Source of the DNA: Chitinophaga pinensis
GTDB lineage: Bacteria; Bacteroidota; Bacteroidia; Chitinophagales; CAMDFR01
DNA: 64,000 nt
Direction of reading: 5' to 3'
Assembly (NCBI GenBank): GCA_945860705.1
Contig: CAMART010000016.1
Span: forward strand, 1 to 64,000
Positions 960-50,319 of the stretch are shown here, one piece after another; within the stretch, counting starts at the first letter, position 1, and the number at the start of each line of letters is the position of its first letter. A model generated the notes under the pieces. It worked only from the letters and a program-made list of their open reading frames with translations. It was not told the DNA's origin and searched no databases. A program made the position numbers and the translations under genes.

Positions 960-1236
960 CAAATTTTGTGGTATGTTCTTTCATCTCTATCTTGAAATGT
1001 ACTGTTATAATTTCGACTTCAAATGGAGGTATTTCAAGAAGTAACTTGATTCTAGAACTTGTCTTTTTATTCAATTTTATCATATCATCACATAAAATAA
1101 CAGCCTCATAGTTTTCCTCTATTATTAGCTTTTCTCTAAAACCATTCCATTCGTCATTCTCACTGGTCAACTTAAGCGAAATTTCCTCAATCTTTTCTTT
1201 TATAATGATATATAATTTTCTTTTACTCTCCGTCAT
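925..1236 (-). CDS. Hypothetical protein, 103 aa
   Basis: The gene is not recognised. It encodes a small, charged, mostly helical N-terminus (MTESKRKLYIIIKEKIEEIS) and a more beta-like C-terminus. It overlaps the upstream 66-residue gene by 14 bp, so the two are almost certainly co-translated. The pair sits between retron 1 and the UDG-like gene, which makes both of them candidate accessory (effector or antitoxin) genes of retron 1. That role is positional inference only. Confidence 0.6.
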   Translation of the reverse strand: MTESKRKLYIIIKEKIEEISLKLTSENDEWNGFREKLIIEENYEAVILCDDMIKLNKKTSSRIKLLLEIPPFEVEIITVHFKIEMKEHTTKFDEIKEAFNNLS

Positions 1237-1423
1237 CTAGCACTTTATCTATGGTTATTAATATAGATTTTAGTTCTTTCAAAATTGTATCAATAGATGC
1301 ACTATCTTCATATTTTTGAGCCAAGACTAATTTCTGTTTCCATTCTGTTAGTTCCTTTTTTTCATTATCTAGCGAATGTTTAAGTCGTTCGATAAGTTTT
1401 TTTGATGTTGGATGATTCAGCAT
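1223..1423 (-). CDS. Small coiled-coil protein, 66 aa
   Basis: The product is short and almost entirely helical (SKKLIERLKHSLDNEKKELT, then LAQKYEDSASIDTILKEL). It probably forms a coiled coil. The second half faintly resembles the UVR helical hairpin seen at the end of the 1-817 protein. It is the first gene after the 225-bp gap that follows the retron 1 reverse transcriptase. It overlaps the next gene by 14 bp. Function unknown. Confidence 0.6.
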   Translation of the reverse strand: MLNHPTSKKLIERLKHSLDNEKKELTEWKQKLVLAQKYEDSASIDTILKELKSILITIDKVLDDGE

Positions 1424-1648: not shown

Positions 1649-3070
1649 TTAGCTTTTAGGTCTTTTAATTTTCAGCGTTTGGTTTTCATTATTTAGATCG
1701 TACTCAAATTCAGATAATAGTTCTTTGTATGTCGAATTAAACCTTTCGCTTAAAGTTCCTTTAATTAAATTACTTCTATTTATCGGTGGTAAATTTTTTG
1801 GCCAATTTAAAGTTTGTTTATATAGCTCAAAATTATTTATCAACCAATTTTTTTTTGTGAAACCATTATTGCTTATTTCTGTAAGGGCTTTTAGGTAATT
1901 TTCTTCATTAATCCTTTCGATTTGGGCAGATGTGTTGTTAATTTGAGTTTTTCCTCTGTGACATTGTATGGAATTAATATGCTTAAACTCTTTTAAAAAT
2001 CTAACATGCATTGGATCCTCTACCCCTCTAATCTGCCCTACAAAATTGATATAACCAAACAATCGATTCAAGAATCTATCAAATAGCTCATCAGGTATTT
2101 CATTTGCTGACACTCCAAAATGCTTGCAGACGGCACTTTCTAAGCCATTCATTTTTAAATCATGTAACATGGCTCTTATTTTCTTAAGCAATTTTCTATC
2201 TACATTTGGTTTTTCGTTTACGGTAATACCTGTAACTACCTGTCTGCGATACCATGGACGAAGTCGCAACTTTTTCTCATTGATTCTAAAATCATTTCTA
2301 TTGATTATAGAAACAATATCAAGAATGGTATCCTCAGTTATGGTATCATTTGTAGAAAATGATAGGTCATCTGCATATCTAGAGTATGTGATATCTCGCT
2401 CATCGCAATAAGATTTCAATTGCTGATCGAGGTCAAAGCAAATAAAATTGGAAACAATAGGCGATGATGGAGCGCCAGTCGTTAACTTGCCTTGATAGGT
2501 AACTAATAATGCCAGTGCAGTTGCTATTTCTTCATTAAAATCGAAGAGTGAAGAAATAAAAACAGTTCTCACTCTTTGGGCTGTGATACTGGGAAAGAAA
2601 TCTTTTAAATCAATATTTAATAAACTTTTTTTATTTACATGTTGCTCAGCATTTAGCAGAATATTGCATTTCCTGCCATATTTTTTAGGGTTGATTGTAA
2701 AGCCATTGACTTCAACAGGTTTGATAAGAGCATAATAAGCTTGTAGATAAAAATTTATTCGTCCTTGTATAGCTTTTAATTGTTTATTTGGCTCATAAAT
2801 ATCTCGAAAACCGCTCTTCTTTTTTGCTATTTGATAATGTCTATAATTAGGATTATTGATAGCATCTTCCAATTGATAAAAATTACGCTTAACAAGTAAA
2901 GAAAGTTCTTTTGCATTTGATAATCCTACAAATAAGTATGCATTGAGCTCGTAGTAACTTCTTTTCCCTTTGTTATATCGAAAGTATTTAGGACGACTTA
3001 TGAAATCACGCCAAAGCCCTTCTTTCGAGTACGGCATAGATAGAATTAGTTTATTTTTACTTGTTGCCAT
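1649..3070 (-). CDS. Retron-type reverse transcriptase (retron 1)
   Basis: This is an RNA-dependent DNA polymerase of the retron clade, expected to copy an adjacent msd template into multicopy single-stranded DNA. Visible motifs are the retron-specific NAEQH (residues 140-144, region X, NAxxH), IDLKDFFPSI (first catalytic Asp, 154), TTGAPSSPIVSN, the YADD box (232-235) and VTG (279-281, region Y). There is a thumb and a C-terminal extension to 473 residues, somewhat longer than typical retron RTs. It starts 24 bp after a candidate msr-msd RNA (3094-3271), the normal retron order. NAxxH and VTG separate retron RTs from group II intron RTs. No group II intron RNA or maturase/endonuclease domain was seen. 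An anti-phage role is the usual one for retrons but is inferred here. Confidence 0.93.
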   Translation of the reverse strand: MATSKNKLILSMPYSKEGLWRDFISRPKYFRYNKGKRSYYELNAYLFVGLSNAKELSLLVKRNFYQLEDAINNPNYRHYQIAKKKSGFRDIYEPNKQLKAIQGRINFYLQAYYALIKPVEVNGFTINPKKYGRKCNILLNAEQHVNKKSLLNIDLKDFFPSITAQRVRTVFISSLFDFNEEIATALALLVTYQGKLTTGAPSSPIVSNFICFDLDQQLKSYCDERDITYSRYADDLSFSTNDTITEDTILDIVSIINRNDFRINEKKLRLRPWYRRQVVTGITVNEKPNVDRKLLKKIRAMLHDLKMNGLESAVCKHFGVSANEIPDELFDRFLNRLFGYINFVGQIRGVEDPMHVRFLKEFKHINSIQCHRGKTQINNTSAQIERINEENYLKALTEISNNGFTKKNWLINNFELYKQTLNWPKNLPPINRSNLIKGTLSERFNSTYKELLSEFEYDLNNENQTLKIKRPKS

Positions 3071-3093
3071 AGTTTTTTAATAGTTTAAAAAAA

Positions 3094-3271
3094 GGAGCCG
3101 TTGCTAATTATCTTTGACCGTAATACAATATCTTATGTTGGAGCGCAGCGGAGACATAAGATAAGCTTGCGTCAGGGCATTACACTCCAACATGGGTTGC
3201 TGGAACACAACCACTAGTCCTTACTTTGAATTTACACGGTTTTGACTCATAATTTTTTTAAGCAACGGCCC
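3094..3271 (-). ncRNA. Candidate msr-msd RNA of retron 1
   Basis: On the minus strand this about 178-nt intergenic RNA starts 9 bp after the DnaB-like stop and ends 24 bp before the RT start. Its ends pair: GCCGTTGCT (3097-3105) with AGCAACGGC (3261-3269). The pairing extends outward as AAAGG/CCTTT around one bulged A, as expected for retron a1/a2 repeats. Inside are a perfect 10-bp stem (TATCTTATGT/ACATAAGATA) with a GC-rich loop and a longer ATGTTGGAG/CTCCAACAT pairing. These are the kind of stems an msd provides. The 3' end carries TGCTAATTAT (+ strand), identical to the same position in retron 2. The branching G was not determined. Confidence 0.75.
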
Positions 3272-3279
3272 TTTATTAT

Positions 3280-4338
3280 TTAGAATGGAGGCACATCAAA
3301 ATCATCCATTCTATTTTTTGATATATTAAATTTACTTTCATATGTAGCTTCTTCCGCGTCAAAATCTTTCAATTGAGAAGAGTAATTTTTGAGCACAAGC
3401 TTAGCAGTTCCTAAAAACCCATTATTATTTTTTGCGACAATCACTTCCATTATGCCTCTAGTATCATTACCTTCTTCGTCTTGGTATATTTCATAATATT
3501 CAGGCCTGTAAATGAAGAATACTTTATCAGCATATTGTTCTAATGCACCACTTTCTCGAAGATCTGATAGCATTGGACGTTTAACCCCACCACGCACTTC
3601 AACAGCCCTGCTCAACATACTTCCTGCAATGATACATACATTATACTCAAGAGCGATTTCCTTTATTTCCTTTATTATATAATTTAATTCAGCATCTCTA
3701 TTTTGATTAAATTTATAGGCACTGAGTATTTGAATATAATCAATAAAAATACATCTAACGCCGTTCTCCTTGATTTGTTTGATACACAAGGCTCTCAAAT
3801 TACTAAGATTACTCCTACAATCATCATTAATATAAATTGGATATTGATTCATCCTATCCACTAATGGGCCAAGTTCAGCAAGCTCCTCGGCTGATAGACT
3901 ACCAAACGAAATTTTTGCAGGATTCATGCCTATTAATACACCAGCAAAGCGATTGATGAGCAAATTTGCATTGGTATCGAAAGTTACGTATAAAACAGGG
4001 ACTTGTAGCGCAATCTCTAATGACATATTAATCATAAAGTCGGATTTACCCATACCAGGTCGTCCACCAACTAAAATTAATTCGCCAAAGCTCAGCCCAT
4101 TAATAATCTTATCAATATTCTTGAAATTGGTTTGGATATGATTATCAATTTGCTGACCATTTTTAAGCTTCTCTACTGCCTTAGAAAAGATACTTGACAA
4201 GGAAGGCGCGCTTACTGATTCATATAGCTTGTATTCATGATTTCTCACTGTTTTAATCAGATCTGTACAAAGTTCCTTTTCAGTAATATCTTCTTGTTTT
4301 AGGAGCTCATTTATTTTATTTATTAGTAGTTCTTTCAT
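3280..4338 (-). CDS. DnaB-type replicative helicase domain protein
   Basis: This is a RecA-fold hexameric helicase core without the DnaB N-terminal domain (352 residues versus about 450-500 for DnaB). Visible are Walker A GGRPGMGKS, the Walker B-like CIFIDYIQIL, the DnaB signature AGSMLSRAVE...LSDLRESGALEQYADKVFFIYR, and the final beta-strands. The C-terminus ends DDFDVPPF, resembling the acidic-hydrophobic tip of single-strand-binding proteins and the tips of the two DUF3127 proteins nearby. Its stop is 9 bp from the retron 1 RNA, so the two are probably co-transcribed. It could serve replication or maintenance of the element, or it could be part of the retron system. Confidence 0.85.
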   Translation of the reverse strand: MKELLINKINELLKQEDITEKELCTDLIKTVRNHEYKLYESVSAPSLSSIFSKAVEKLKNGQQIDNHIQTNFKNIDKIINGLSFGELILVGGRPGMGKSDFMINMSLEIALQVPVLYVTFDTNANLLINRFAGVLIGMNPAKISFGSLSAEELAELGPLVDRMNQYPIYINDDCRSNLSNLRALCIKQIKENGVRCIFIDYIQILSAYKFNQNRDAELNYIIKEIKEIALEYNVCIIAGSMLSRAVEVRGGVKRPMLSDLRESGALEQYADKVFFIYRPEYYEIYQDEEGNDTRGIMEVIVAKNNNGFLGTAKLVLKNYSSQLKDFDAEEATYESKFNISKNRMDDFDVPPF

Positions 4339-4437: not shown

Positions 4438-5439
4438 TCAATTACTTTTAAATATTAAGAAGATAACTCTTAAAATTCTATCCAATAGACTTTGTTTACT
4501 TATAGGTAGTTCTCCTATAGTCTCTCCCTTGCTACAATGCGCTATAAATTCGCAGGTATAGGGTTTATTGCATTGCGCACCCATTGACACACAAGGAACT
4601 TGTTTCGCTTTTAAAACTAGTTTGAGCCTTTCAATATTTTTAGGGATACTCGTCATTTTTTCTTCCAGTTTTGCAGTAACATCAATAATTTCAAAATCAC
4701 CATCTCTTGTTGCCAAAACAATATTAAATGCCTCAATGCTTTTGAGAACTGATTTGCAGACATAGTATTGTATTGCTGCATCGTTCATAATCACCTCCGT
4801 TAAAGTTGTTGAGTTTTTAACCTCATAAATAGTTAATTTATTTCCATTTTCTTGATGTAATACATCTGTTAAAACCAACACCTCATTATACACAAAAGCA
4901 GCTTCAAAAATAGTAATCTCTTTCCCTTTTGCTATTAGTGCTTCGGTATAGGCGCTATACAAATGAAATTGATTTTTAAAAATCTTCTTTAAATCAATGG
5001 CATTGACAAAAAAACTTCTGAAATGATCTTCAAAACTCCTACCTGCATCAAAAAGTAGTTGAGTTTTAGCACTGGTAGGTGTTTTGTATTTAGCATGAAA
5101 TTTATTTAAATACAAGGCCTTAGGGCATTGTAAGCCACGTATATAAGTACTTTTCGAAAGTAAATGATGTTTAATATTTTGTTGACTTCCACTCGTAATA
5201 TAATCACTTTTGAGTGCGTCAAGCTCATCAAAACTTTTCGCCAATGCGATTTGTTTGTCTAAAATTTCAGCGAGCGGGAGAAATACTCTATCCATGCCTT
5301 CCTCAGTAATCATCACTCTTAAATCTGACTTCTGCATCCATGCTTTTATCTGAGTATACTTCTGCTCAGCACTATTAAACTGTGCGACTAAAAAATCATT
5401 GTCCGCATCTTGGGTATATTTTTTTAAATATTCTAACAT
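4438..5439 (-). CDS. Cas4/RecB-like Fe-S nuclease (PD-(D/E)XK)
   Basis: The ATG at 5439 is preferred. The longer reading frame to 5517 would need a TTG start and would include an upstream repeat element. The N-terminal about 90 residues are helical. Then come YIRGLQCPKALYLNKFH, FDAGRSFEDHF, a nuclease core with VLTDVLH and IYEVKNST (the D...ExK active site), a QYYV helix, and the C-terminal cluster CNKPYTCEFIAHC. The first Cys (in QCPKAL) plus three Cys at the end form the [4Fe-4S] pattern of Cas4/AddB-like nucleases, also found in DUF2779 proteins. A 5'-3' exonuclease role is inferred. No cas1/cas2 or CRISPR array is nearby, so it is a solo Cas4-like enzyme in a DNA-processing block. Confidence 0.8.
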   Translation of the reverse strand: MLEYLKKYTQDADNDFLVAQFNSAEQKYTQIKAWMQKSDLRVMITEEGMDRVFLPLAEILDKQIALAKSFDELDALKSDYITSGSQQNIKHHLLSKSTYIRGLQCPKALYLNKFHAKYKTPTSAKTQLLFDAGRSFEDHFRSFFVNAIDLKKIFKNQFHLYSAYTEALIAKGKEITIFEAAFVYNEVLVLTDVLHQENGNKLTIYEVKNSTTLTEVIMNDAAIQYYVCKSVLKSIEAFNIVLATRDGDFEIIDVTAKLEEKMTSIPKNIERLKLVLKAKQVPCVSMGAQCNKPYTCEFIAHCSKGETIGELPISKQSLLDRILRVIFLIFKSN

Positions 5440-5492
5440 ATTTTTGGTTTTTTTCAGTATTTGTGTCTTTGATTCATGCAAAAGTAGGATAG

Positions 5493-5523: not shown

Positions 5524-6261
5524 TTATTTTAAAAGATTAATGTCTACATCTTTATTGGCTTTTCTATTTCGAGTTCTTACTATCGTTGACTTGTAATTAG
5601 ATGGAAATTTATAATAGTAAAATGTATAGTCATCTACACATGGTAAATCTGCTAAATCCACATTTTTTAATAAATCAATATCAATTTCAAGCCTTCTAGC
5701 CAATTCCTTAGCGTAATATGTGTTTCTGGTAATAACATTATACTGTTCGTATTTGTAGGGAGATAAATTAGTATATGGAATAAATTCAAGCGCATATAAA
5801 AATCCAAAATCACTATACTTCCCTTTTTTAAATAAATCTATTATCATTTTCCATCTTGGTATTACTTTGAATACAATTCCATATACACACTCATCAATTT
5901 TAAATGTTGTTACATAATTTTTAACTCGTGACTTTGTTGTTTTAATAAACAAATCAAACTTTTGATATAACTTTTTAGGGAAGTGGAAGACGAGAACGAT
6001 ACAATTATCTATTTTTATTGGCTCCACTGCATCAGGCATATTAGCAACTACTTCTATATAGGCATTAACAAAACCAAATTCCCTTGCAATTTTTGGTGTT
6101 AATATTTTATCAGCAATTTGTATGGTGGGCAACAAGTACTTTGTACATAAATTCATTTTGACATCAGGTTTTGACGACTCTAAGTATTTCATTAATTCTC
6201 CTTTTTTTGACTTAGGCTCCTTTTGCACAGTCTCTAAATCGAATAGTAAAAGTTGATTCAT
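5524..6261 (-). CDS. Unknown protein, paralogue of the 7794-8471 product
   Basis: The family is not recognised. The 245-residue product shares a colinear core with the 225-residue product of 7794-8471: NLCTKYLLPTIQIA versus NLCSKYLLPSIQIT, then GFVNAYIEV/GFVNAYLEV, KIDECVYGIVF/KIDDYVFAIAF, LFKKGKYSDFG/LFKDGKYSAFG, EQYNVITR/EQYKVITR and DDYTFYYYK/DDYIFYYKQ. The first about 30 residues (MNQLLLFDLETVQKEPKSKK) are an extension missing from the paralogue. No signal peptide or membrane segment is seen. Two diverged copies in one gene run suggest duplication within the island. The small soluble alpha/beta composition gives no firm function. Confidence 0.7.
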   Translation of the reverse strand: MNQLLLFDLETVQKEPKSKKGELMKYLESSKPDVKMNLCTKYLLPTIQIADKILTPKIAREFGFVNAYIEVVANMPDAVEPIKIDNCIVLVFHFPKKLYQKFDLFIKTTKSRVKNYVTTFKIDECVYGIVFKVIPRWKMIIDLFKKGKYSDFGFLYALEFIPYTNLSPYKYEQYNVITRNTYYAKELARRLEIDIDLLKNVDLADLPCVDDYTFYYYKFPSNYKSTIVRTRNRKANKDVDINLLK

Positions 6262-7793: not shown

Positions 7794-8471
7794 TTATTCT
7801 TTAGGTAAGGAGCTTAAGCGAGACTCTTTTCTTTGTAAGTTTAATATGTACGGGTTATTCGCAATGTTCGCACGCTCTACTTCTGTTTGTTTATAATAAA
7901 AAATATAGTCATCTGATGTTGGATATTCATCCAAATCGATATCACTTAAAACACTTGGGTAAATACCCAATGCATACGATTTCTCTTTAATATAGGAGGG
8001 GTCCCTTGTAATCACTTTATATTGCTCAACAGCAAACTTTTTATCATTTTTATGATTAATAATAAATTCATCTGCATAACTTTTACCAAATGCACTGTAT
8101 TTACCATCTTTAAACAAGTTCAAAATAAATGACCACTTAGGCAATACATCAAAAGCTATGGCAAATACGTAATCATCAATCTTGTAGCATCTATTGAAGT
8201 TGGGCACCTCCAATTTAAATTGATTGATAAGTATTTCATTTTCTTTTTCACTTGATTCGTCGAAATTGAATATCATATAGATGCAATTCTCTTTATTTAG
8301 GAGTAAGTCACCTTTCTCTAATTTAACATGTACTTCTAGATAAGCATTCACAAACCCTAATATTTCAAGGGTACTTTCCGAGAAATTATTATGAGTAATT
8401 TGAATGGATGGGAGCAAATATTTACTACATAAATTTTTCTTTATCTTTGCTAAAGTTTTTATAGATTCCAT
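7794..8471 (-). CDS. Unknown protein, paralogue of the 5524-6261 product
   Basis: The 225-residue product is colinear with that of 5524-6261 over nearly its whole length (shared blocks listed there). It lacks the N-terminal extension and has a different, basic tail (NLQRKESRLSSLPKE). It follows the DUF3127 gene by 43 bp on the same strand. No catalytic motif was recognised. The conserved Cys in NLC(T/S)KYLLP and the conserved FGKSYADEF/FGFLYALEF segment would be the first places to look for function. Confidence 0.7.
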   Translation of the reverse strand: MESIKTLAKIKKNLCSKYLLPSIQITHNNFSESTLEILGFVNAYLEVHVKLEKGDLLLNKENCIYMIFNFDESSEKENEILINQFKLEVPNFNRCYKIDDYVFAIAFDVLPKWSFILNLFKDGKYSAFGKSYADEFIINHKNDKKFAVEQYKVITRDPSYIKEKSYALGIYPSVLSDIDLDEYPTSDDYIFYYKQTEVERANIANNPYILNLQRKESRLSSLPKE

Positions 8472-13865: not shown

Positions 13866-14990
13866 TTATGGAAATAAAGACAAAATATTTTTAATAAATG
13901 TCAATTGTTTAATGCAGAAATCATATTGCTCAGTCGAATCTTTTTCATTTATAAGTGGTCTTTCATAAATATTTTTTATTTTACTATGAATAAAATCAAT
14001 TTTGTTTCTAAATGAATTAATACTATTAAATCCATTTGATAAACTCTGAAATTGTTGATTATCCATTTGATATGCTGCAAGTAAAGAGTACACTTGTTCA
14101 CTCAAATTAATTTTTCCATTTATATATTTAAAATCTATTATATTGGCATTTTCTTGAACACCTTGGGAAACCCAATTTCCTCTTATATCTTTTGAAATAT
14201 TAACTTCAATTGTATCATTATCTCTTTCAATAAAATACTCTTTATTGCGAAACTTCCAATTACCACTAAATGTGTAATCTGGCATAATCCAATTATTGTA
14301 CTCAGAGTATCCTTTTACAATTTCTTCTAAAATTGACCAATAAATAATGAATGCAATTGCTTCATTGTTTGTTTTTAAAACTTTTTTTTCTAATTCATTA
14401 GGTTCTTTGAAAAGATAATCATATCCAAGTTTCAACTTGTCAATAATCCTATCTTTTACATTTTCATATTTTTTATTTTCCATGAAATAACTATGTTTTG
14501 AAATTTTATCAATTATATCTTTAGATAATTTCCATATATCATTTCTTTTTTGTCCAATTGCCTTTAATTCAATAAATTTTTTTTTTAGATTATTGTAGTT
14601 TTGTTTAGATGTCTCTATGTCAAAGACATAATTAGGATGTTCTTTAATATAATATCCATCAATACCATAATTCCTGAATGCATCTACATTCCATATTTTG
14701 TTAGTTGCTGTAATTAAAATAATTGGAGTGGCAAAATTCATATTCAGAAAATTATTTTTTATTTTTTCTAGTATTTTGTATCCAGAATATTCAGTAGGAT
14801 TTGTAACATTATGATCTTGTTCACTTAACCTAACATCTAGAAAAATTAAATCAAATTTATCTTCAATCTTATTTTCTGCTTCTTGTAAATTAAGGGCTAC
14901 CTGTACAATCATATCCGTTACTGGAAACACCTTTTCAATTATTTGTTTCCAGCCTTTATTTGCATTATCATCTATTAGTAATATTCTCAT
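13866..14990 (-). CDS. Response-regulator receiver protein (retron 2 operon)
   Basis: The N-terminal 120 residues form a canonical receiver: acidic pair D7/D8 (ILLIDDNA), phospho-acceptor D52 (LIFLDVRLS), T94 (ILITATNK) and K116 (YYIKE). The remaining about 250 residues carry no HTH, diguanylate cyclase or other known output domain. They are helical and charged and resemble no family I can name. It overlaps the preceding gene by 4 bp and closes a four-gene operon headed by a retron RT. A phosphorylation-controlled effector or switch for the retron is inferred. The source of phosphate is unclear, as no intact histidine kinase is adjacent. Confidence 0.85.
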   Translation of the reverse strand: MRILLIDDNANKGWKQIIEKVFPVTDMIVQVALNLQEAENKIEDKFDLIFLDVRLSEQDHNVTNPTEYSGYKILEKIKNNFLNMNFATPIILITATNKIWNVDAFRNYGIDGYYIKEHPNYVFDIETSKQNYNNLKKKFIELKAIGQKRNDIWKLSKDIIDKISKHSYFMENKKYENVKDRIIDKLKLGYDYLFKEPNELEKKVLKTNNEAIAFIIYWSILEEIVKGYSEYNNWIMPDYTFSGNWKFRNKEYFIERDNDTIEVNISKDIRGNWVSQGVQENANIIDFKYINGKINLSEQVYSLLAAYQMDNQQFQSLSNGFNSINSFRNKIDFIHSKIKNIYERPLINEKDSTEQYDFCIKQLTFIKNILSLFP

Positions 14991-16186
14991 CTTTTTGGAA
15001 TTTTAGTTAAATCTATTTTATCAACAATAGTAGGGCCTTGTATTATAATTTTATTTCTAAAAATTCTATTTTCTTGTTGTACTTCCTCGGGCAAAGCCTC
15101 ATATAATCCATTTTTTGCTATTAGCCATTTGAAATAGAGAGAATCTAATTTATCTTTATCGAAATCGGTAATTTCATTTATGTCAATACCGGCATTATAT
15201 GCAAGCTGATATATTCCAAATTCATTAGCTATAGAGTGGTCATCGATATGATCCTCTGTAACATCAAGTTTTAGTTTAGCCAATTCATTTTGTAACTCTT
15301 TTTGCAAAAATGGTTGTTGATCTTTTTGCACCGCGTTTTTAAAGGATTCAATAGAATAATCAATTAGATGTGTGTTTTTTGTTTTAAGTATGTTAAAATA
15401 ATTATTCTGTAAAAGGTAGTCCATACTTACTGCGCTGTAGAGAAAAATCCTTGTTGCTTGATTGAGTGATTTTGAACATCTAATGTAACAAGCTAATCTA
15501 AGTCCATTAAAATCAGACAAGGTGCTTCCAAAGCATAATGGGACAAAAATATTATCGTATTTGTTTCTATTAAAAACATTATCAAATCGATCATTTAGAA
15601 TAAAATCATTTTCAGAATTTAAAACTTCAGAATTATACCCAATCGGGTTCTCTTCAAAGACTAAATATCTATTTGATTGTATCAACAAACTATTAGAATT
15701 GTTAAATATATCTTTAAAATTAATAATTGTGTTTCTTGATAACTGCCATTTATTGCCTAATTCAATTTCAATTTCCTTGTTCTTGCCATAGATAAGATAG
15801 TCAATGTTAATATCATTTTGCCTTTTTTTTAGTATAAATAATTCTAAATTTTGATACAAAGTAGAAATAGGTAAATTTATTCGATTAGCATTTTTGCTTC
15901 TAGAATATATTCCACCACTAAAATAAATAACCAAGTTTGCTCTACTTTTCAATCTCTCCTTGACTTCCATAATATTCTTAACTCTATCATGTTCTATATT
16001 TTTAAAAAAAGATTCATGTATTATTAAAATATTTTTCTCATGGAACATTTGTCGCCTGAAATCTTCTGACTTCATATCTTCATATGTCCATATAGGTATT
16101 ATCTCATCTTTATAAGAGTTAAGCTTTTCTTCGGTCCAAGAATACTTAGACTGTCTATTTTTTTTATCGTCTATTATATAAATCAT
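14987..16186 (-). CDS. Pseudo-receiver protein (retron 2 operon)
   Basis: The 399-residue product starts like a receiver (MIYIIDDKKN, with acidic pair D6/D7; then NILIIHESFF and NLVIYFSGG as the next beta-strands). The position of the phospho-acceptor Asp is occupied by His-Glu, so normal phosphotransfer is unlikely. The rest includes a segment FVPLCFGSTLSDFNGLRLAC and helical stretches of unknown fold. It overlaps both neighbours by 4 bp. It probably partners with the true receiver encoded next in the operon. Confidence 0.65.
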   Translation of the reverse strand: MIYIIDDKKNRQSKYSWTEEKLNSYKDEIIPIWTYEDMKSEDFRRQMFHEKNILIIHESFFKNIEHDRVKNIMEVKERLKSRANLVIYFSGGIYSRSKNANRINLPISTLYQNLELFILKKRQNDINIDYLIYGKNKEIEIELGNKWQLSRNTIINFKDIFNNSNSLLIQSNRYLVFEENPIGYNSEVLNSENDFILNDRFDNVFNRNKYDNIFVPLCFGSTLSDFNGLRLACYIRCSKSLNQATRIFLYSAVSMDYLLQNNYFNILKTKNTHLIDYSIESFKNAVQKDQQPFLQKELQNELAKLKLDVTEDHIDDHSIANEFGIYQLAYNAGIDINEITDFDKDKLDSLYFKWLIAKNGLYEALPEEVQQENRIFRNKIIIQGPTIVDKIDLTKIPKR

Positions 16187-17421
16187 TTATTTATTAATTT
16201 AAAAATATACTCTAGTCCCTTTACTTCTTCACTACTTTTAATCCAATAGTGCTTTTGTTTCTCTCGAACTTTGTAGTCCCAAAGAATAGCTTCATAGGAT
16301 AATCCATCATTAAATTTTGTTTTTATTGTAAAATCTGCAATGCCGTTTATTTGATTATCGATAAGATTTCTAAACGAATTTCCAATTATTCTACCGTCGA
16401 TATTTTTGTTTAATCCATTTGAGTTTTTATGTATTATGGAAAATAAAAATCCTTTTTCAAAAGATTTAAATTTAATTTCGACTTCCGGTTTCTTTAAATT
16501 TCTTTCTTCTGTGACATCGAGGATCATTTTGATAATAATTCTATACGACTGGACTAATTTTGAAATATCAGTAAAATAATCAATTGTTTCATCGACATCA
16601 TATAAAAAGTCTATTTTATCAAACCACTCTACTTTTGTATTTAACTTAACTATTTTCTTTAAAGAGTTATTTTCTCTGATATGAAATAAATATTTAAAAT
16701 ACAACACTATTTCACTAAAACTTTGAATATGCTCTACACAAATGCCATCTTTTTCTAACAACCTTATTTCTGGTGTTATGGCATTAAACATAAACCCAGT
16801 TTTATTTAATTCTTCATCTGGATGTGGTGGAATGTGTGGATTTTGTTCAGCCCATTTTGTTAAGTTCGGACTCATCCAATTTATAGTCATTTTTTCAGCC
16901 CATTTATCTATTGTATCTCCATTAAGATTCTTACCAGTAATATAAACACTATAAAGAGTTCTTGTATCTCTGTTTACTTTATCTTGAATGCTGTTAAATT
17001 GGTTGAATTTATCTATTATTAATTCTCTGTGTTGAATAAAAGAATATTCTGTAATATTGAGCAATCTATTTAGTTTGATTATATCATTAGAATCACATAA
17101 ATGACATGATGTACTTAATGTTTGGTCTTGATTAAACGTCAATAAATATTCATATAGCAGCTTTGGATTATAATAGTATTTCGGAAGATTCGTTGTTTGG
17201 TTTTCAGGTGAATCTTCCGGCTCACTATTTGGATTGTCTATTTCTCCATTCGTTACTTTTGCCACTTCTAATTTTTTTACTCTCTCTTCCAAATCCTTTC
17301 CTAAAATTTTATCATTTTTTATTTCTTCTTTAGCTAATAACAACAATCTCTCTCTTTGATTAAGAGTGAGCTTCTTGTTTTCCAATAGTTCTTGAATGAA
17401 GTCGTATTTGTCTTTTGCCAT
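16183..17421 (-). CDS. Unknown protein, possible degenerate GHKL ATPase (retron 2 operon)
   Basis: The 412-residue product has a helical, coiled-coil-like N-terminus (residues 1-60), a polar acidic linker (EIDNPNSEPEDSPENQ), and a central region with a possible metal site (TSCHLCDSND). The C-terminal part has the strand and helix order of a histidine-kinase ATPase (VEIKFKSFEKGFLFSI, then IGNSFRNLIDNQINGIADFTIKTKF). The N, G1 and G2 boxes are not clear, so it may be degenerate. It overlaps the RT gene by 1 bp and the pseudo-receiver gene by 4 bp. Sensor or kinase-like partner of the receivers is an inference from context. Confidence 0.55.
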   Translation of the reverse strand: MAKDKYDFIQELLENKKLTLNQRERLLLLAKEEIKNDKILGKDLEERVKKLEVAKVTNGEIDNPNSEPEDSPENQTTNLPKYYYNPKLLYEYLLTFNQDQTLSTSCHLCDSNDIIKLNRLLNITEYSFIQHRELIIDKFNQFNSIQDKVNRDTRTLYSVYITGKNLNGDTIDKWAEKMTINWMSPNLTKWAEQNPHIPPHPDEELNKTGFMFNAITPEIRLLEKDGICVEHIQSFSEIVLYFKYLFHIRENNSLKKIVKLNTKVEWFDKIDFLYDVDETIDYFTDISKLVQSYRIIIKMILDVTEERNLKKPEVEIKFKSFEKGFLFSIIHKNSNGLNKNIDGRIIGNSFRNLIDNQINGIADFTIKTKFNDGLSYEAILWDYKVREKQKHYWIKSSEEVKGLEYIFKLINK

Positions 17422-18944
17422 TATTTAGTATTTACTTTACAATAGTGATTCATAGCAACATCTATACCTTTGTTTTCCCATATATTTAAAAGTTCTTCTA
17501 ATGGGTTAATTGTTCCTGATAAAGCATCAAACCTACCCTTCAACTTTAAATACAACTCATTATCAGCGCCCTTAACCATTTTCAAGTACTCTAATTTACC
17601 TGATACTACATTTGTCATATTTGGCATTCCATTTTTTACATGTCCTTTGTCGGCAAGGTATTGTTTTAAAAAGAATCCTGTAGCTCTTTCATATCCATAC
17701 CTTTCCCAGTAATACAACCACATACGCAATTGCTTGATGTATCGCTGCTGTACATTGACCTTTTCATTCACCAATAAACCGGTTACTTCTTTGCGGTAGC
17801 CATCTTTTTGCAAACGGGTCTTGCTTTCTTTGATGTGAAAGTTTTGCTCAGTAATTATCCTGTGTAATTCTTTTAAAAACTCACTCTCGGGCTGAAACAC
17901 GTTGTGCATAGAACTGAAGGTGATGTCATCGGCATAACGGCTGTATTTTAGGCCAAATCGTTTTGCTACACCTGACAATAAATAATCAAGTTTTTGGCAA
18001 ACAATGTTTGTTATTACCGGTGAGGTTGGAGCACCCTGTGGCAATACATTGCGTTTTACTTTTTCCCATACGCCATTTTCGTTTTTGCGTTCTACTTCCA
18101 TTTCGGTACAACATAAAGACGCTATTAAATTAGCAATTCTAAGTCTATTATCTTTATCTCGACCTTTGTTGTTAATCAAACTTCGAATAACACGGTCCTT
18201 AACAAAATCAATATCCTCATCAAGCTTTCTTTCGTCTTTTATCTGTAAAGCCAAGTTTTTGATGTATTCTAAGTCTGAATTTTCTTTCAAAATCAATATC
18301 AAATTCTTCTCTGCCAATTTATAAAATAACTTGCCACCATTTGATAGTTTAAGGAAGGTAAAATCATCAGCTAATTCTTCTTCAGCATTTGATAGGTATT
18401 CAATAACCGTTTTGACTTTCTTTTTACTCTTTATGCTAATTGATGTGTGCTCATTCCTAAATTTTTTATCGTGCTCCAAATTTAGATAGAATGGATGTAG
18501 TTGAAGGCATTTCCATATTCTAGCTTGATCAATACTATGAAAGAAATCTTTTAAATCAATATTGTATACAAACTTACTTCCTTCATGCATTTTTGCATTG
18601 TCTACAATAGACTTATTCCGAATAAAGCCCATAGCAGCTCTATGTGGTTCAAAAACACATTGAAGGGTATATGATAAGGCTCGTTGTATAGATAATAGTC
18701 CCTTCACTGGTGCATGAATTGTACGGTCTTGACTAGATTTCTTTTTTATTAGAAAGGAGATGTAATTACTTTTTGTGTCATTGATAAATGCATACCTAGT
18801 TAACTGCTCTAATTCAATTTTAGCAGTTTTTTTATTATACATTAAAACTTGAACTTCATTCAATATTCGAATAAAACCCTTCTGAGTTCTAACTCTTTCG
18901 AAAGATTGTTTTATTTTATCGATTTGTTCTAATTGTGTTTTCAT
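17421..18944 (-). CDS. Retron-type reverse transcriptase (retron 2)
   Basis: Retron RT motifs are all present: NAKMH (116-120, NAxxH), NIDLKDFFHSI (Asp130), LPQGAPTSPV (301-310), YADD (337-340) and EVTGLLVNEKVNV (VTG 387-389). An insertion of about 130 residues (roughly 155-290) separates the first catalytic motif from the PQG motif, making it 507 residues. It differs clearly from the RT at 1649-3070, so this is a second retron and not a recent copy. It is the first gene of a four-gene overlapping operon and lies 18 bp after a candidate msr-msd RNA. Confidence 0.93.
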   Translation of the reverse strand: MKTQLEQIDKIKQSFERVRTQKGFIRILNEVQVLMYNKKTAKIELEQLTRYAFINDTKSNYISFLIKKKSSQDRTIHAPVKGLLSIQRALSYTLQCVFEPHRAAMGFIRNKSIVDNAKMHEGSKFVYNIDLKDFFHSIDQARIWKCLQLHPFYLNLEHDKKFRNEHTSISIKSKKKVKTVIEYLSNAEEELADDFTFLKLSNGGKLFYKLAEKNLILILKENSDLEYIKNLALQIKDERKLDEDIDFVKDRVIRSLINNKGRDKDNRLRIANLIASLCCTEMEVERKNENGVWEKVKRNVLPQGAPTSPVITNIVCQKLDYLLSGVAKRFGLKYSRYADDITFSSMHNVFQPESEFLKELHRIITEQNFHIKESKTRLQKDGYRKEVTGLLVNEKVNVQQRYIKQLRMWLYYWERYGYERATGFFLKQYLADKGHVKNGMPNMTNVVSGKLEYLKMVKGADNELYLKLKGRFDALSGTINPLEELLNIWENKGIDVAMNHYCKVNTK

Positions 18945-48278: not shown

Positions 48279-48479
48279 ATGTTAACAGTAAAACAATGTA
48301 GAGAAATTTTAAACAAAGAAGCGGCAGGATTAACAGATGCAGATATCATTCTAATCAGAGATTGGCTTTCTGATTTAGCAGATATGCTGATTGAAACATC
48401 CTCAAAAACTAAAACAGTAAACAAAAAACAAACAAATGACAAAAAGAGCTATTATTTATACCCGCGTTTCAACAGATGA
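48279..48479 (+). CDS. Small helical protein upstream of the recombinase, 66 aa
   Basis: The ATG at 48279 is preferred (the frame to 48261 needs TTG). The product has MLTVKQCREILNKEAAGLTD and ADIILIRDWLSDLADMLIET, typical helical pairs. Its 3' end overlaps the recombinase start by 44 bp in another frame, so translation is probably coupled. It may be a recombination accessory or partner protein. Small genes in this position are common in Bacteroidota elements. Confidence 0.55.
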   Translation: MLTVKQCREILNKEAAGLTDADIILIRDWLSDLADMLIETSSKTKTVNKKQTNDKKSYYLYPRFNR

Positions 48480-50004
48480 GCAGAACAACGGTTATAGTCC
48501 CGCTGATCAAAAAGATAAATTATATCGCTATTGCGAAAATAATGGAATAGAAGTGGTTGGCTTTTATCATGATGATGAAAGCGGAAAGTCTTTTAATAGA
48601 CCTGAATGGAAAAAGATCATGTCTTTCATTCAAAAGAATAAAAACATGGTAGATTATATCTACTTTCTAAAATGGGATCGTTTCTCCAGAAATGCACCTG
48701 AAGCTTATGCAGAATTGGGTAAACTCAAAAAACTAAATGTAGAAGCTAGAGCTATGGAGCAACCATTGGATTTAGATATACCAGAACAAAAAGTCATGCT
48801 AGCTATTTACCTAACTGCTCCCGAAGTGGATAATGATAGAAGAGCCTTAAATATTTTTCATGGAATAAGAAGAGGTAAAAAAGAAGGAAGATGGCTGGGT
48901 GCTTGTCCTCGAGGTTATAAAAATACTCGTAATGAAAATAATCGCCCAATTATTGCTCCTGAAGGTGGAACCCAAGAAAAACTGGTGAAGCAGGCTTTTA
49001 AAGAATTTGCAACTGGCATATATAGCATGGAGGAACTACGTCTCAAATTATATAAGATGGGTTTGAAATGTGCCAGTAACTCGTTTTGGCGGCTCCTACG
49101 AAATAAAGCATATATTGGAAAGGTATTAGTTCCTGCATATAAAAATGAACCTGAGGTTTGGATTGATGGCAAGCATATTCCGCTCATAGATGAAGCCATA
49201 TTTTACAAAGTACAAAGCTTATTGGCTGACAGGAGAAAAAAAGTGCCTACTAGTTTTAAAACGGTAAGAGATGAATTTCCTTTACGTGGGCATTTAATAT
49301 GTCCTCAATGTGCTAAACCACTCACTGCTTCATTTTCTAAAGGAAAAATGGGTATACGTTATCCGTATTATCATTGCTCAAAAGGATGCAAAGAAAGACA
49401 AAAGGCAAGTATCATAAATAATGCTTTTTTAGAGTTACTGCATACCATACAATTTAAACCAGAAACTTTAAAATTATTTTCAGCTATTGTTAAAGATAAT
49501 TTGAAGAAAAATAACCAGGACGGGAAAGCAGAAATGGACTCTGTTCATAAGGAAATACTCAAACAAAAACAAAGACTTGAAAATGCAAAATCAATCATGC
49601 TCGATGGTGAAATTAGCGCCATCGAATTTAAAGAAATGCGCTATGTAATTGAAGAAAAGATTACTCAACTCACTTGCGATTTAAGCAATATCAGTTCTGG
49701 GATGCGGAATTTGGATGATAAGATTGATGAAGTCGTCGAACTCTTAATTGAACTCGAAAAGACTTATCTGCAAAGGGATACAGTCACCAAGCAACATATA
49801 GTGAGTTCGATATTTCCCGCTAAGTTGGTTTTCGAAAATAAAAAAGTTCGAACTCTCGAAATGAACAAAGTACTATCGCTAATAAGCAGTATTGACAAAG
49901 GTTTCAAGGAAAACAAAAAAATAAAGCACACCGAATTTGGCGTGCTTCTCCATAGAGTGGAGCCGGTGGGAGTCGAACCCACGTCCGGACAAAGCGAATC
50001 ATAG
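48436..50004 (+). CDS. Large serine recombinase (integrase) of the island
   Basis: The N-terminal resolvase domain has catalytic Ser12 (IIYTRVSTDEQNNGYS), KWDRFSRNAPEAY and the E-helix region. A recombinase DNA-binding domain, a zinc ribbon (LICPQCAKPL...YPYYHCSKGCKE) and a coiled coil follow. It has 522 residues and all parts are intact. The last about 25 codons lie in the tmRNA terminator and tmRNA 3' end, and the stop codon is supplied by ssrA sequence. This shows the element inserted at ssrA. It is convergent with and overlaps the tmRNA. Confidence 0.93.
   Translation: MTKRAIIYTRVSTDEQNNGYSPADQKDKLYRYCENNGIEVVGFYHDDESGKSFNRPEWKKIMSFIQKNKNMVDYIYFLKWDRFSRNAPEAYAELGKLKKLNVEARAMEQPLDLDIPEQKVMLAIYLTAPEVDNDRRALNIFHGIRRGKKEGRWLGACPRGYKNTRNENNRPIIAPEGGTQEKLVKQAFKEFATGIYSMEELRLKLYKMGLKCASNSFWRLLRNKAYIGKVLVPAYKNEPEVWIDGKHIPLIDEAIFYKVQSLLADRRKKVPTSFKTVRDEFPLRGHLICPQCAKPLTASFSKGKMGIRYPYYHCSKGCKERQKASIINNAFLELLHTIQFKPETLKLFSAIVKDNLKKNNQDGKAEMDSVHKEILKQKQRLENAKSIMLDGEISAIEFKEMRYVIEEKITQLTCDLSNISSGMRNLDDKIDEVVELLIELEKTYLQRDTVTKQHIVSSIFPAKLVFENKKVRTLEMNKVLSLISSIDKGFKENKKIKHTEFGVLLHRVEPVGVEPTSGQSES
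49924..49947 (-). terminator. Terminator of the tmRNA, inside the recombinase gene
   Basis: On the minus strand AAGCACGCC pairs with GGTGTGCTT (9 bp, one G-U pair) around AAATTC and is followed by TATTTTTTTG. It starts 10 nt after the tmRNA 3' end and overlaps the recombinase coding sequence on the other strand. Confidence 0.8.
49948..49990. other. Attachment site (island/chromosome junction) at the ssrA 3' end
   Basis: The integrase gene and the ssrA 3' end meet here. The T-arm and acceptor sequence (GGTGGGAGTCGAACCC) is the likely target. The exact core cannot be fixed because the other junction is not in the window. Confidence 0.6.
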
Positions 50005-50319
50005 CCTACTACATGTTTAGATTGTACTTATTTTTCGAGTATTACAAGGAGTCCAATCATACCAAATAATACTTTATCCTTTTCATCTCGAATATCTGTC
50101 AAGGCTCCAGATTTTCTATCCTGATTTGATTATGCTTAGCTACCACCCTACAGGCTCGAACAGCAGGAAGCAAAGGCACTTAATTCCTTGAATTAAGCAG
50201 CCAAGGCGTAGTTAGACTCGCCGTATAAAAAGTGTTGAAAGTTGATTTTAAAGAGCCATACCTACAACGCTCTACATGCAAACTATAAAACTACCTTCCC
50301 GTCAATTCCGGGCGGCCCC
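49958..50319 (-). ncRNA. ssrA: tmRNA (transfer-messenger RNA)
   Basis: The 5' GGGGCCG (from 50319) pairs with the 3' CGGCTCC (to 49959), with discriminator A at 49958. The T-arm reads GTGGGTTCGACTCCCAC and the encoded CCA is absent. The mRNA part encodes GESNYALAA then TAA (minus strand, codons GGC GAG TCT AAC TAC GCC TTG GCT GCT), a Bacteroidota-type proteolysis tag. It rescues stalled ribosomes together with SmpB. The gene remains intact after integration. Confidence 0.95.

Follow-up and report, generated by a model that had tools for sequence, protein, structure and literature searches.

A retron reverse transcriptase and its RNA recur behind a DnaB-like gene

We analysed a stretch of 64,000 nucleotides from a Chitinophaga pinensis assembly (contig CAMART010000016.1, positions 1 to 64,000; hereafter "the window"), and found on its minus strand a gene for a DnaB-family helicase paralogue, a structured RNA and a retron reverse transcriptase (RT), in that order. 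Judged from its sequence, the locus is a real bacterial retron, that is, an RT with its own structured template RNA. The same layout was present in all 24 loci that we assembled: the DnaB-family paralogue lies directly upstream of the RT, on the same strand, and the non-coding RNA (ncRNA) lies between the two. With an RT and an ncRNA accompanied by a constant DnaB-like partner in at least 24 loci, we consider it close to certain that this is a retron with a DnaB-like partner. The earlier note on this DNA, which had recognised no retron effector around the RT, rightly called a retron, but overlooked that the DnaB-like gene is its constant partner; the genes downstream do not belong to the unit.

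The reverse transcriptase and the conserved unit

The RT (1649-3070, minus strand; 473 aa) carries the NAEQH, YADD and VTG motifs from which the earlier note had called it a retron RT, and the NAxxH, YADD and VTG motifs are kept in nine of nine aligned homologues. Its core spans approximately residues 40-370; residues 371-473 form an extension that we found elsewhere only in a sister copy, L004. For the core, PADLOC ranks nothing but retron RT models at the top, and its retron models span 155-299 bits (RT-Protease XI, 299; RT-Toprim I-C, 298; RT-TIR XII, 280), and the non-retron models Drt2 and group II intron (NCBIfam) score 32.9 and 31.7 bits. The Ec67 and TIR retron models of NCBIfam give 235 and 241 bits, against cut-offs of 450 and 600. 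Matches to the XI and XII models are confined to the RT core, ending near residue 383, and the type I-C, XI and XII profile models revealed no fused Toprim, protease or TIR domain; RTs from other loci reach 440-465 bits over the RT core on the same XI/XII PADLOC models. The predicted structure (pLDDT about 74, with the last ~100 residues below 50) matches Eco2 (Ec67) first, followed by Ec86, Eco7, Ec78, Ec83 and Eco8, and its top 18 fold matches are retrons, ahead of any DRT or intron RT. By clade, motifs and fold, the RT sits on the retron side and not with group II intron, Abi or DRT enzymes; the placement that the earlier note had named as refuting thus did not come about.

Profile searches recovered 22 further RTs of this clade, in addition to the 95%-identical copy in the same genus. 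An order-level search of 396 genomes yielded closer RTs, with a DnaB-like gene upstream in L129, L130, L131, L133, L134, L135 and L136, and a profile of the RT clade led to L178, a viral contig arranged in the same way. At class level, a search of 395 genomes detected an RT of this clade in 16; of the 15 that were new, 14 have a DnaB-like gene directly upstream, and the fifteenth adjoins Cas1/Cas2-type genes. In one genome (G491) the contig begins at the RT, such that the upstream side falls outside the contig. Together with the window and L004, the full set comprises L129-L131, L133-L136, L178 and L358-L371 (n=24), and covers 14 family codes and one viral contig. RT identity among these loci falls to about 35%, and their neighbourhoods are otherwise different. 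No gene was seen to recur downstream of the RT across the set. The gap between the DnaB-like gene and the RT is about 155-265 nt (recounted from a later start in L363), and 631 nt in L369. Among 200 fetched loci with an RT match, some of them overlapping, there was no DnaB upstream outside this clade. The window RT as a single query had no match in viral contigs, and a phylum-level sample contained no DnaB-linked relative apart from the window itself; it took the searches at order and class level to bring the clade to light.

We also noted two other RTs. One lies elsewhere in the window, is 507 aa long with an extra stretch within the RT domain, and heads a four-gene cluster (13866-18944) whose further members are at 16183-17421, 14987-16186 and 13866-14990, the last being response-regulator-like; this cluster recurs wholly or partly, often with a RecD-like helicase, in L141, L145, L146, L147 and L148. 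The other, in L067 (5312-6910), is a fusion of a retron-like RT with a restriction endonuclease domain of the Mrr type (Pfam Mrr_cat 2.8e-6).

Architecture of the retron RNA

The msr-msd RNA occupies 3094-3271 on the minus strand, read from 3271 down to 3094, and is assigned from its folding stability (z -4.85), covariation and a match to a descriptor. The 209-nt gap upstream of the RT folds at -58.9 kcal/mol, and 0 of 200 shuffles are as stable; the 3' end of the ncRNA is 23 nt from the RT start codon, consistent with the 24 bp given before. The proposed pairing of the RNA ends also proved real. In the window, GCCGTTGCT pairs with AGCAACGGC, and an inner AATTAT/ATAATT helix follows across a bulge. 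By position, a1 (3249-3271, minus strand) has an outer arm at 3271-3261 (GGGCCGTTGCT), a bulge and an inner arm at 3254-3249 (AATTAT), and a2 (3094-3111, minus strand) has an inner arm at 3111-3106 (ATAATT) and an outer arm at 3105-3094 (AGCAACGGCTCC). This complementarity has a p of about 0.0055 in the window, and seven relatives give values of 0 to 0.0095. Compensatory changes preserve the terminal pairing in the 24 loci, so that a second refuting outcome named in the earlier note, lack of its conservation in homologues, did not come about either.

Right behind a1 (AATTATG) stands a candidate branching guanosine (3248, minus strand), which is G in 24 of 24 loci. The position of this invariant G equals that of rG15 of Eco2, which bears the 2',5' branch (PMC12405507), and we infer from that position that G3248 would be the branch point. 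The first msr stem-loop (AGTC...GACT; 3216-3247, minus strand) starts immediately 3' of this G and shows covariation, with double changes in all four pairs and 97.2% of cells paired. The second (GGTTGTGTTCCAGCAACC; 3195-3212, minus strand) was found by unguided RNAalifold; in the composites described below, 98.9% of its cells are paired. The msd hairpin (TATCTTATGT-CTCCGCTGCGCTCCA-ACATAAGATA; 3129-3163, minus strand), the putative template of the msDNA stem, has a perfect stem of 10 bp, a length reached by 0 of 300 shuffles; a perfect stem of 8-15 bp, beyond chance, is present in nine of the ten ncRNAs tested, and one pair of the stem changes from A-U to G-C between the window and L004, as read from the alignment. 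The plan common to these RNAs opens with the outer a1/a2 helix, which is followed across a bulge by the inner one; the invariant G comes next, then, without a gap, stem-loop 1, stem-loop 2 (mostly GGYTG...CRRYC) and the msd hairpin, and the inner arm of a2 lies behind AG or CG.

Run on a plain, untuned MAFFT alignment, RNAalifold recovered only stem-loop 2, with covariation, because the outer arms are not alignable by sequence; for this reason we used composites of helix arms. The arms were chosen by eye, such that the pairing counts lean towards structure; as controls, we slid the partner arms, combined arms of different loci, and applied a descriptor alongside negative sets. In composites from ten sequences, 98.7% of cells in 23 pairs were paired and 17 pairs had double changes; none of 500 shuffles reached the observed value, and slid versions gave 17-49%. 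For 15 inner pairs in 18 distinct sequences, the values were 97.0% and 11 pairs, with 20-46% for slid versions. The outer a1/a2 helix was paired in 183 of 184 cells in 23 loci, dropping to 45% when arms from different loci were crossed. The descriptor matches 22 of the 24 DnaB-linked loci, the very loci on which it was tuned, and has no match in 25 other retron-like RTs, 24 reverse complements, 550 shuffles or the six members of a Cas1-type group discussed below. No Rfam family matches the window ncRNA.

A motif near CTCACTGCGTTCCGC in the msd loop is common to about half of the DnaB retrons (L129, L131, L358-L363, L365 and L368), where it is strong, but the window has only a weak form of it (p 0.23). 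In msDNA the motif would be single-stranded, and it might perhaps be a recognition site.

A retron layout with a bounded msr-msd, as the earlier note had it, agrees with the RT clade, the motifs, the Eco2/Ec67-like fold and the conserved terminal pairing. With its compact form and strict anchors, this ncRNA would be a new template RNA for msDNA production.

The DnaB-like protein and its possible role

The gene upstream of the RNA (3280-4338, minus strand) encodes a DnaB-family helicase paralogue of 352 aa that lacks the DnaB N-terminal domain (Pfam DnaB_C, 6e-62); the earlier note had described it as a DnaB-type helicase with an SSB-like tip. The tip, an acidic -PF tail, is real; since it also occurs in the majority of the housekeeping DnaBs in these genomes, we rejected it as a special trait. 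The protein has a Walker A motif (GGRPGMGKS) and a Walker B motif (FIDYIQ), with TFD for SLE and SMLSR for SQLSR. A DnaB_C domain is present in all retron DnaB-like proteins tested, most of which have 284-371 aa and no N-terminal domain; six of the 24 have a longer N-terminus, and Pfam DnaB_N is found in three of the 24 (L133, L135 and L136). The protein of L134 is as long as, and nearly identical to, that of L133, and those of L370 and L371 have 443-446 aa. The conserved Glu of the SLEM motif, which we take to be the catalytic base, is retained in 10 of 10 housekeeping DnaBs; at this position the retron DnaBs have Asp in 13 of 24 cases, including the window, Glu in nine, and neither in L370 and L371. 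The Walker A Lys is replaced in L004 (by Q) and L178 (by R), and the change from SQLSR to SMLSR, with loss of the H3 Gln, is shared by the window and L004. Loss of the H3 Gln in the window and of the Walker A Lys in L004 may reflect decay in this genus.

A DnaB_C search of ten genomes found one housekeeping DnaB in each, of 499-557 aa and away from the retron; in the nine whose contig covers the upstream side, the retron locus holds the sole other strong DnaB_C copy. The DnaB tree would fit either a single origin of the retron copies or several. In PADLOC-DB 2.0, the DnaB-like gene matches mad8 only (22 bits), and none of the typed retron partner proteins.

Comparison with L004, a Saprospirales MAG contig from the same genus as the window, delimits what surrounds the unit. 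The two are 94.8% identical over 4.2 kb (window 5541 to 1304), a block that holds a DUF2779/Cas4-like gene, the DnaB-like gene, the ncRNA, the RT and the first part of a small ORF, and beyond it they share little more than a 75-bp stretch. The dN/dS values (NG86) of the RT (0.15), the DnaB-like gene (0.34) and the DUF2779 gene (0.24) show, at the level of this pairwise comparison, purifying selection on the genes compared. The DUF2779/Cas4-like gene (4438-5448, minus strand), a putative nuclease whose relatives are annotated as DUF2779 and which is colinear with L004, is an optional neighbour: it is adjacent in two of the 24 loci (the window and L004), and we rejected it as a conserved partner.

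Downstream of the RT, the two small ORFs and the gene described as UDG-like do exist. None has a Pfam match, the UDG identity is unconfirmed (the AlphaFold model is too poor, pLDDT 43), and the genes are not conserved with the RT. We rejected the UDG-like gene as a member of the unit; in L178, a protein encoded after the RT at first looked like the UDG-like protein but proved not to be similar. The small ORF behind the RT (window 1223-1423; L004:6378-6680) is common to the window and L004 in its first half and then diverges, and the L004 ORF and the UDG-like protein of the window both end in a UVR-like motif; this pattern suggests recombination, as far as sequence comparison goes. The window locus is part of an island that resembles a mobile element; next to the SSB and helicase genes of this island, two similar-looking proteins without a Pfam match are encoded (5524-6261 and 7794-8471). 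In the region 48436-50319, a serine-recombinase-like ORF overlaps the 3' end of the tmRNA gene (49957-50319). The overlap looks like an element insertion, and the island may extend from there to the contig start.

Given that the downstream genes are not conserved, the DnaB-like gene upstream is the best effector candidate, a role that gene order and co-conservation suggest. In retrons in general, the RT-msDNA holds back an effector until phage infection (PMC12548924, PMC13405049). The explanation towards which we lean is an undescribed retron type made up of a co-directed DnaB-like gene, msr-msd and RT, in which the DnaB-like ring would be toxic upon release. We are more tentative about the particular mechanism, in which RT-msDNA would restrain the ring and its freeing would stop replication. 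The RT would prime on the G behind a1 and copy the msd hairpin into msDNA; RT and msDNA would keep the DnaB-like protein inactive until a phage replication event perturbed the complex; and the freed ring would load on forks, or mix with host or phage DnaB, such that replication stopped and the infected cell died or arrested without phage release. The ring could be a slow or ATP-locked helicase, with no N-terminal domain in most members and an often altered catalytic Glu, and such a ring ATPase, its catalytic base weakened, could block the fork by occupying single-stranded DNA or by joining host or phage DnaB hexamers. Nonetheless, nine of the 24 proteins retain the Glu and six have longer N-termini, and therefore one mechanism need not fit all.

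Alternatively, the DnaB-like protein could be a decoy or guard, a mimic of host DnaB to which phage loaders or inhibitors bind, triggering the RT-msDNA, with harm done by RT-msDNA or by a variable neighbour. Most retron DnaBs do retain the DnaB_C motifs, and many the acidic -PF tail, while catalytic positions drift, and there are variable neighbours, the DUF2779 nuclease for one; however, across the 24 loci no further protein is conserved next to the unit, which would leave the RT or the msDNA itself as the executor, and we give this reading perhaps one chance in a handful or slightly better. Less probable still is a non-toxic system in which the DnaB-like protein would be an accessory helicase for maturation or strand separation, with msDNA or the RNA-DNA hybrid as its substrate. 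DnaB proteins bind single-stranded DNA, and Walker A and B are retained in most members, but the frequent change of the SLEM Glu to Asp and the loss of the Walker A Lys from the L004 and L178 proteins speak against a required processive helicase.

The nuclease could itself be the effector here, forming a four-part system with the DnaB-like protein and the retron. Nuclease, DnaB-like gene, ncRNA and RT move as the 4.2-kb block between two genomes whose flanks differ, but the nuclease adjoins the unit only in those two loci, both from one genus, and we regard this as improbable. Lastly, the setting of the window on a mobile-element-like island would suit a chance arrangement, a retron RT behind a mobile-element replication gene with no functional link. 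Recurrence of the gene pair and ncRNA in 24 loci, across 14 family codes, differing neighbourhoods and RT identities down to about 35%, refutes this, and we give it next to no credence.

Retron types are defined by their effectors, and there is no replicative helicase among those compared here. If the DnaB-like protein is indeed the effector, this would be a defence built on a broken version of the motor that drives the cell's own replication forks.

Relation to Cas1/Cas2-linked reverse transcriptases and known retrons

In a tree of 46 RTs, the DnaB-linked RTs group with those of a Cas1-type group (support 100/99), and a larger quick tree concurs (SH-aLRT 93 for the joint group); a single clade of DnaB-linked RTs is not rejected (p-AU 0.22), but the trees do not establish it. 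The Cas1-type group comprises retron-like RTs right before Cas1-/Cas2-type genes in L137, L139, L140, L142 and L372, with L138 included by its RT only; Pfam confirms Cas1 at three loci of the group and Cas2 at one, and L372 and L140 are assigned by gene order and length. These loci come from several families of the phylum. The DnaB-retron ncRNA descriptor is found in none of the six, and a Pfam scan detected no cas1 or cas2 among the genes adjoining the window RT. A survey from 2017 described one retron-like RT beside Cas1/Cas2, in Haliscomenobacter hydrossis, thought to be a recent insertion (PMC5541045). The shared clade may reveal how CRISPR adaptation took over a retron RT. It is possible, although we hold the combined idea as tentatively as the release mechanism above, that the executor is a catalytically altered DnaB copy attacking the fork, and that a CRISPR adaptation-linked RT arose from the same clade after loss of the retron RNA.

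We found no DnaB-type retron in PADLOC, NCBIfam, Rfam or the open literature, a comparison that leaves aside the typing scheme of Mestre 2020, and the open literature held nothing relevant on a retron with DnaB or DUF2779. A 2026 preprint distinguishes sixteen retron subtypes by effector (among them ATPases, cold-shock, HNH, HEPN and transmembrane proteins), with more being classified, and names no DnaB. As far as these sources reach, a retron type with a DnaB-family partner appears undescribed.

The closest solved structure to the window RT is that of Eco2 (Ec67), a type I-C RT-Toprim retron. Both have a1/a2, a branch G right behind a1, an msr hairpin and one long msd hairpin (PMC12405507); unlike Eco2, the window has no Toprim domain in its RT, a separate DnaB-like gene upstream, two msr stem-loops and an RT of another clade. 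Types XI (RT-protease) and XII (RT-TIR) are among the best PADLOC matches of the RT core, at 299 and 280 bits, but the match covers that core only, and neither a protease nor a TIR domain was found. In five Cas1/Cas2-type loci, of the kind reported for H. hydrossis (Toro 2017, PMC5541045), the RT belongs to the same clade as the window RT, but Cas1/Cas2 take the place of the DnaB-like gene and the retron ncRNA descriptor has no match. Retron and housekeeping DnaBs share the DnaB_C domain and, in most cases, the acidic -PF tail, whereas the retron proteins are shorter, mostly without the N-terminal domain, on long branches and altered at catalytic positions, and, unlike their housekeeping counterparts, are accompanied by an RT and an ncRNA.
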